DNA from: Dehalococcoides mccartyi 195
GTDB taxonomy: Bacteria > Chloroflexota > Dehalococcoidia > Dehalococcoidales > Dehalococcoidaceae
Assembly (NCBI RefSeq): GCF_000011905.1
Contig: NC_002936.3
Span: 1,178,001-1,242,000 of the forward strand
DNA length: 64,000 nucleotides
Direction of reading: 5' to 3'
Made by a program: the position numbers and the translations under genes. The notes under the pieces were generated by a model. That model ran no database searches, was not told the origin of the DNA, and saw nothing but the letters and a program-made list of their open reading frames with translations. Positions 20,576 through 21,763 of the stretch are shown here, piece after piece (the first letter of the stretch is position 1; each line of letters begins with the position of its first letter).

Positions 20576-20734
20576 ATTCCCTCCCATACTGCTTGTATAA
20601 TACCCGCTATTGTAACACGTACCGGATTAAATTTCCGCAAGAAAAACGCTAACAGAAGCTATGCCCGTATATAAATATAAAAATACCCAAGCATAACCTG
20701 GGCTGCAAAAATAAGCAGCCGGCAAACCCTTTTA

Positions 20735-20764
20735 AAACAAAAAAAGAGGCCTTCAAACCTCTTT
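20735..20764 (-). terminator. Terminator of the minus-strand structured RNA
   Basis: Minus-strand stem AAAGAGG/CCTCTTT (20764-20743) with an eight-base loop followed by TTTTGTTTT. It is placed 11 bases beyond the closing stem of the RNA at 20776-20892. Confidence 0.85.
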
Positions 20765-20775
20765 AAAAAATAAGC

Positions 20776-20892
20776 TGGTCCTGCCGCTAGCCCGATTACG
20801 CTCAGGGCTCCGCCCACGGGAGGGGACCTGGATGATAATTAAGCCGCTCGGCGCCTCAACCGACAGCACCCTGATTTCCCCCGGCAGGACCA
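20776..20892 (-). ncRNA. Unassigned structured RNA with perfect 11-bp closing stem
   Basis: The two ends, CGGCAGGACCA and its complement, form an 11-bp closing stem (20776-20786 with 20882-20892). Inside, on the minus strand, TCAGGG pairs with CCCTGA, and CGG/CCG plus GCTG/CGGC give a further hairpin, leaving an asymmetric internal bubble. GC content is well above the flanks. A good promoter (20945-20973) and a strong terminator (20735-20764) on the same strand predict a transcript of about 200 nt. I do not recognise SRP, RNase P, tmRNA, cobalamin or cyclic-di-GMP signatures. The closing stem plus bubble plus length is reminiscent of 6S RNA, but the identity is open. Confidence 0.65.
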
Positions 20893-20944
20893 ACAATGGT
20901 TATCAACTTTTTAATTTTCAACCGTTGTTTATAAGTATGGGTAA

Positions 20945-20973
20945 ATTATGCCAGAATTATTTTATTTTGGCAA
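20945..20973 (-). promoter_or_regulatory. Promoter of the structured RNA
   Basis: Minus strand TTGCCA (20968-20973), 17-bp spacer, CATAAT (20945-20950). The predicted start near 20938 is followed by a hairpin (AACAACGGTT pairing with AACCATTGTT) that leads into the closing stem. Confidence 0.65.
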
Positions 20974-21046
20974 TACTGTTTAAGCGGCAAATATGTATGA
21001 CTTCTAAATTTAACAAATACACCTGAGACGGATATCCCATACAGGC

Positions 21047-21763
21047 TTACTGCTCAAAGAAGGGCGCGGGGTTATTCAGAAAATCACGGTATATGCGATA
21101 GTACTGGGTATCGTAATACCCTATAGGGGAAACAGGTGCGGTATCAAACGTATATATGGCCGCATTCGGGCAAGCCAGCAGAATAGGCGAATGGCTGACA
21201 ATGATAAACTGGTTATGGTCTGAGGCGGATGCCTGACTTAAGAGCTTCAACAGCATAAGCTGGCTTTTGGGTGATAAAGCCGTTTCGGGCTCATCCATGA
21301 AATACAGGCCTTTTATCTTGTAACGGGATTCAAAATACTGCATCAGTGACTGGCCGTGAGAACGGTTGGCAAGGGAATCCCCGCCGAAGTATTTCAGGAT
21401 ATCCGGCGAAGCCGCTGCCCATTCATCCAGAAAACGGGTAAAGTCCTGAAAAGTGCGCGAATCAAAAAAGGAACCTTTTACCCCGCCTTGGGGCAAACCG
21501 AGTTCCAGATAGTCTGAAAAGCGGTCTGCATAGGGGTTATTATCCAGCGTCAGGCGGCTGGTATCTTCCCAGATATGCACACCGGCCCTGCGGCAGATTG
21601 CCCTGAGCAGAGTGGACTTGCCGCTGCCGTTCTCTCCAATAAAAAAAGTAACCGGCTTACTAAAAGTTATTTCGGAGGTTTTATGCAGCACACCCAGATT
21701 AAAAGGGTAAAGGCTGTTATCCGGAAATCTGTCTGACCTGATTATTACCCTGTCCAGAAACAT
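21047..21763 (-). CDS. AAA-type (ABC-like) ATPase, RecF/OLD-like
   Basis: 238 residues. Walker A G-E-N-G-S-G-K-S-T-L-L at about 43-53, ABC-type Walker B L-Y-F-M-D-E-P-E-T-A-L-S with D-loop-like A-L-S-P-K-S-Q, and the switch histidine in I-V-S-H-S-P-I-L-L. It belongs to the stand-alone predicted ATPase group (COG3910-like) with no membrane partner. Function unknown. About 230 bp without a gene separate it from the upstream GNAT gene. Confidence 0.85.
   Translation of the reverse strand: MFLDRVIIRSDRFPDNSLYPFNLGVLHKTSEITFSKPVTFFIGENGSGKSTLLRAICRRAGVHIWEDTSRLTLDNNPYADRFSDYLELGLPQGGVKGSFFDSRTFQDFTRFLDEWAAASPDILKYFGGDSLANRSHGQSLMQYFESRYKIKGLYFMDEPETALSPKSQLMLLKLLSQASASDHNQFIIVSHSPILLACPNAAIYTFDTAPVSPIGYYDTQYYRIYRDFLNNPAPFFEQ

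Follow-up and report, generated by a model that had tools for sequence, protein, structure and literature searches.

A structured RNA family of the Dehalococcoidia with a predicted pseudoknotted core and a putative stand-alone gene near yajQ in Dehalococcoides

The locus ahead of yajQ

The window analysed here is a 64,000-nt stretch of the Dehalococcoides mccartyi 195 genome (contig NC_002936.3, positions 1,178,001 to 1,242,000). On its minus strand, ahead of yajQ, lies an element spanning 20892-20776. A perfect 11-bp closing stem (UGGUCCUGCCG/CGGCAGGACCA, in which 20892-20882 pairs with 20786-20776) encloses 117 nt, and the interior is GC-rich. This is the outline given in a preliminary description of the locus, and the sequence bears it out. 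The features of the locus, all on the minus strand, are as follows.

20945-20973, minus strand: putative sigma-70-type promoter, TTGCCA-17-CATAAT, with an extended -10 (TG before the -10 box); both boxes unchanged among three Dehalococcoides species
20735-20938, minus strand: predicted transcript of ~200 nt, start and end placed from the promoter and terminator
20882-20892, minus strand: P1 5' strand (closing stem); all 10 of its modelled pairs show two-sided changes across the family
20878-20881, minus strand: P2 5' strand, GGGG; pairs with 20825-20822, crossing P3; 97-98% paired, with G-C to C-G and A-U changes
20875-20877, minus strand: near-invariant AAA linker; 92-97% identity among the distinct sequences of the alignment
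20869-20874, minus strand: P3 5' strand, UCAGGG; partner 20807-20802; 97% paired, with two-sided changes at 5 of 6 pairs
20843-20867, minus strand: variable P4 hairpin; two-sided changes at all 7 modelled pairs; missing in minimal members
20822-20825, minus strand: P2 3' strand, CCCC; partner of GGGG at 20878-20881
20815-20820, minus strand: P5 5' strand, CCCG, and conserved UG; pairs with 20794-20791, crossing P3; 98.8% paired
20802-20807, minus strand: P3 3' strand, CCCUGA; partner of UCAGGG
20791-20799, minus strand: near-invariant GUAAU, then P5 3' strand, CGGG; 90-98% identity among the distinct sequences of the alignment
20776-20786, minus strand: P1 3' strand; perfect stem, covarying across the family
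20743-20764, minus strand: intrinsic terminator, 9-bp hairpin and U-run; kept in two sister species

The predicted 203-nt transcript folds with an energy of -77.3 kcal/mol (z = -3.4), and none of 200 dinucleotide shuffles was equally stable. A search of the window element against Rfam 15 gave no matching family, even with E values up to 10 allowed. The earlier view that the element is noncoding and lies outside known RNA families is supported. Ten diverse members of the family described below likewise gave no Rfam 15 match overlapping the element core, EAR included. A sub-threshold match, Spy1186876 at 20890-21049, lies in the upstream flank.

We compared the locus with two sister Dehalococcoides species. 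The -35 and -10 boxes are identical and the terminator, which starts 12 nt past the element, is kept in all three species, while the flanks have diverged. Within the element there is a single substitution in 124 nt; it falls at an unpaired bulged G, and no stem-breaking change was found. The minus-strand promoter and terminator of the preliminary description are thus both present and conserved. Judging from these two signals, the window copy would be transcribed as a free-standing small RNA gene of ~200 nt. Our search of the literature on Dehalococcoides small RNAs found nothing on this locus.

The relationship to yajQ is a different matter. In the sister species G001 and G002, one or two oppositely oriented genes separate the element and its terminator from yajQ. 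Because these antisense genes intervene, we regard the window locus as a stand-alone RNA gene that merely precedes yajQ. The element is not kept upstream of yajQ or co-transcribed with it, so a role as yajQ leader was rejected. The suggestion of a terminator riboswitch controlling that gene fails on the same observation; in addition, the terminator is peculiar to the window locus within the family. A second terminator-like hairpin lies between the element and yajQ (window 20685-20703, minus strand) and shows a weak, below-threshold resemblance to NsiR1.

Distribution and consensus fold of the family

The window element belongs to a structured RNA family, ~125 bases long, that had not been recognised before. 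BLAST with the element showed that its own genome has one further copy and that other genomes of the order Dehalococcoidales have many. Of 156 genomes of that order, a covariance-model search detected the family in 62, at up to 16 copies each; with the strict filters applied, no copy was detected in the other 94. Copy number is highest in genomes G140 (16) and G037 (15), and Dehalococcoides has two. Five genomes of the class Dehalococcoidia outside the order also carry the family, and among 400 genomes sampled from the phylum every match fell in the same order. Across these searches of order, class and phylum sample, the family is restricted to the class Dehalococcoidia. A plasmid collection yielded no homologues. 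One contig of a viral collection carries a full-length element (L217:5357-5481, 86 bits) and may be Dehalococcoidia virus or host DNA.

In total, 136 copies were collected and examined in their genomic context. Some stand in tandem ahead of one operon, with two copies at L038, two at L155 and three at L142. Six minimal members (L150, L151, L152, L153, L159 and L161) have no P4 hairpin and retain only the chained pseudoknot core predicted below, ~55-60 nt inside P1. Five of these are located at L150:4000-4095, L159:3926-4025, L151:737-843, L152:1539-1650 and L153:4061-4157.

The consensus fold was tested on 109 distinct sequences and 31 pairs. Its helices are P1, P2 (GGGG/CCCC), P3 (CCAGGG/CCCUGG), the P4 hairpin and P5 (CCCG/CGGG). 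Standard pairs form in 91.6% of cells, and 27 of the 31 pairs change on both sides, in 437 such cells versus 118 expected from shuffles (0 of 500 shuffles reach the observed count). Sliding the partner columns by 1-3 positions destroyed the covariation, and a one-column slide alone lowered pairing to 51-60%. The covariation that the preliminary description had proposed to look for in related genomes is therefore strong, and it extends to the closing stem.

From this alignment, the core is predicted to consist of two pseudoknots linked in a chain and enclosed by P1, with P2 and P5 each crossing P3. The alignment was fitted to the nested helices only, with P2 and P5 absent from the model, and pairing in these two helices is therefore an independent check. 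Both vary little and are compensatory when they change: P2 occurs as CGGG/CCCG, and P5 as CCGG/CCGG in L011 and L017 and as CCAG/CUGG in L153. The nested fold described earlier was incomplete, because plain minimum-free-energy folding cannot show pseudoknots.

Unpaired AAA after P2, UG after P5 and GUAAU before the P5 3' strand are 88-98% conserved. In paired columns, G-U combinations outnumber A-C combinations (199 versus 71), which points to RNA of the sense strand as the molecule that functions.

Genomic context of the copies

With ORFs called by length, without an annotation pipeline, the next large ORF is co-oriented with the element in 95 of 115 cases, and just 2 copies run antisense to the genes on both sides. 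A conserved, covarying, aptamer-like fold in mRNA leaders is what one finds in riboswitches, and it is found here; about one-third of the copies also lie close (≤160 nt) behind a co-oriented upstream ORF, so that placement is best described as leader or intercistronic. Some copies lie just 2-40 nt past the upstream gene or have no co-oriented gene after them. OmpR response regulators or divergent MarR/AsnC regulators are often found upstream.

The genes downstream have no single metabolite in common. Most frequent are SBP_bac_5 lipoproteins (26), followed by adenosylcobalamin (B12)-type ribonucleotide reductases (11), TAT-signal iron-sulphur subunits adjoining molybdopterin enzymes (Mo hydroxylases; 9), DppB-type permeases (8), radical SAM proteins (6), TRAP binding proteins (5) and the molybdate transport genes modA/modB (3), with single occurrences of MttB, a corrinoid protein, a UroD-like protein and a CoA-transferase. 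Several of the transporter operons run on into aldehyde:ferredoxin or other molybdopterin oxidoreductases. In Dehalogenimonas-like genomes, the ribonucleotide-reductase or radical-SAM gene is often the first of an operon that includes a reductive dehalogenase.

The second Dehalococcoides copy (L033:4790-4911) lies at ~0.963 Mb and the window copy at ~1.199 Mb. The three Dehalococcoides species all have, immediately after the second copy, a conserved hydrophobic mini-ORF of ~26-28 codons (MSGLGLWLILIALILSIG...; L033:4600-4770, corresponding to G000:C1 ~962.6-962.8 kb, minus strand). It has a GGGG stretch resembling a ribosome site, and a terminator follows it.

We scanned the copies for an expression platform by simple means, without a pseudoknot-aware model. 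Intrinsic terminators follow 6 of 133 scanned copies, 3 of these being the window locus, versus 7 in control stretches; a classical terminator riboswitch was rejected, as most copies have no terminator. The C-rich CCCCUCCC tract is predicted, in a scan of the same simple kind, to pair with the Shine-Dalgarno sequence in just 1 of 53 cases, and sequestration of that site by the conserved tract was likewise rejected. With few terminators and no predicted sequestration of the ribosome site, a classical switch is unsupported.

Regulatory reading and its competitors

We tentatively favour, as a reading with a good though not prevailing chance of being correct, a cis-acting regulator that binds a signal or a protein and whose window copy has been released to act in trans. 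The element would act as an RNA on the transcribed strand, typically in a 5' UTR or intergenic region of catabolic or respiratory operons. There, this compact pseudoknotted domain may bind a small-molecule or protein signal and so tune downstream expression. In Dehalococcoides, the window copy would have become uncoupled from target genes, its conserved promoter and terminator yielding a ~200-nt RNA that presumably functions in trans, one possibility being titration of that signal. A cis-acting regulatory RNA is favoured because of the conserved core and its placement; the near-invariant AAA, UG and GUAAU segments surround the pseudoknots, as expected of an aptamer core. Orphan riboswitch candidates share with the family a pseudoknotted conserved core, near-invariant loops, sense placement before transporter or enzyme operons and tandem copies. 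Unlike them, the present family has no terminator or Shine-Dalgarno switch and no single metabolic theme, and it includes many near-identical copies. Counting against the regulatory reading are the absence of a visible expression platform, the lack of a metabolite common to the downstream genes, the copies placed 2-40 nt behind a gene or with no co-oriented gene after them, and the dispersal shown by near-identical copies with unrelated flanks.

A more far-reaching proposal is that the family represents a new signal-sensing or catalytic RNA class with a chained double-pseudoknot core, which disperses as a module within genomes, regulates operons for uptake, molybdenum/tungsten enzymes and organohalide respiration across the lineage, and in Dehalococcoides has been released as a stand-alone RNA too. 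We regard this as possible but somewhat doubtful.

The near-identical copies bear on a competing explanation, in which the element is a small mobile or repeat element with the P1 strands as its ends. It would persist where insertion in sense orientation between genes is harmless, and its fold would serve its own spread, for example as a ribozyme or guide-type scaffold. There are within-genome pairs with 96-100% identity whose flanks fall to background identity (~0.58) starting at the P1 edges, the pattern of a mobile repeat. In genomes G008 and G006, identity reaches 97-99% between copies that head different genes, versus a median of 90% for copies before the same gene in other species. Near-identical copies with unrelated flanks show that, inside genomes, the module either disperses or undergoes homogenisation. 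The patchy copy number, from 0 to 16, also fits a mobile element, as do apparent decayed remnants, which lie ≤~130 nt upstream of a radical-SAM ORF (a scrambled core at L252, the last ~25 nt only at L259) and precede genes whose paralogues have an intact element. No clean empty site is evident: leaders of element-free paralogous operons (L233, L241, L234 and L270) are unrelated. At L194 (G008:C1:484800-498600) and L046, one genome has several near-identical ribonucleotide-reductase operons, each headed by a nearly identical element (98-100%), which suggests that operon or element was duplicated recently.

Other observations speak against a mobile element, which we hold to be less likely than the regulatory reading. 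Orientation is strongly biased, the same gene families recur downstream, the G-U asymmetry points to the sense strand, and one locus is near-perfectly conserved in three species. The inspected flanks of near-identical copies show no obvious target duplications, and an unsystematic look at the contexts gave no mobility gene consistently linked to the element. Mobile and repeat motifs, such as MRSC-65-2 (PMC11109978) or REP/MITE-like sequences, resemble the family in being multi-copy and dispersed, with P1 ends like terminal inverted repeats. They differ from it in that the present family has interlocked covarying pseudoknots, a bias of orientation and gene family, and one stand-alone locus shared across species.

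The absence of a local expression platform, together with sense-only placement in leaders or between genes, would also suit a nascent-RNA element of the EAR or put type that relieves polarity or prevents termination by acting on RNA polymerase in long operons. EAR and put RNAs are likewise compact, lie in leaders or between genes, and lack a local expression platform. By this analogy, a compact pseudoknotted RNA might serve long operons as functionally diverse as those seen here. The window copy, however, precedes a conserved terminator, followed in the sister species only by antisense genes, rather than a long operon, and the family matches no Rfam sequence or structure, EAR included. We consider anti-termination rather improbable.

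For the window locus itself, it could be argued that the Dehalococcoides copy is a trans-acting small RNA, base-pairing or sponging a protein, by a mechanism unrelated to that of the mRNA-linked copies. It has its own promoter and terminator and no target gene behind it. Its core is nevertheless as intact as in the cis copies (116 bits in the covariance model versus 122 for the best family copy), which suggests the same binding function and leaves a separate mechanism distinctly improbable.

The proposal of a diverged 6S or other housekeeping RNA is almost certainly wrong: the locus shares with 6S RNA (RF00013) a stand-alone gene of ~200 nt and a GC-rich, long hairpin-like outline with an internal bubble, but RF00013 gave no match genome-wide or at the element (E up to 10), though this search does recover 6S from 5 of 14 control genomes, and the family has a covarying core predicted to be pseudoknotted, is multi-copy and linked to mRNA genes, and is undetected in most genomes of the order. 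A single lineage-wide housekeeping gene was likewise rejected, given two copies in Dehalococcoides, 0-16 elsewhere and none detected under strict filters in 94 of the 156 genomes.

On RNA control in Dehalococcoidia, the papers searched gave one weak rdhA candidate alongside mentions of Moco and cobalamin riboswitches. That candidate, the rdhA motif WRC-34-1 (Narunsky et al. 2024, PMC11109978), is the closest published item; it is a weak structured-RNA candidate of Dehalococcoides immediately upstream of rdhA, and it resembles the present family in its link to reductive dehalogenases. Neither family copy in the window genome is near rdhA: the dehalogenase family has 19 matches there, the nearest at 0.804 and 1.372 Mb, and the elements lie at 0.963 and 1.199 Mb. 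Identity with WRC-34-1 was rejected on position relative to rdhA. Nothing in Rfam corresponds to the element, and we rate it as a probable new RNA family whose general kind is known, its separation from WRC-34-1 being positional only.

RNA-based control seems little known in the Dehalococcoidia, which are hard to manipulate. Here, a covariation-backed family is attached to genes that define the lifestyle of these organisms: dehalogenase operons, B12- and molybdenum-dependent enzymes, and peptide and TRAP transporters. Its compact core, ~55-90 nt long and with invariant loops, lends itself to direct testing in vitro. In these pollutant-respiring bacteria, the copies usually lie just ahead of uptake, molybdenum-enzyme or dehalogenation operons, and their number, which reaches 16 in one genome, suggests that the signal is in broad use.
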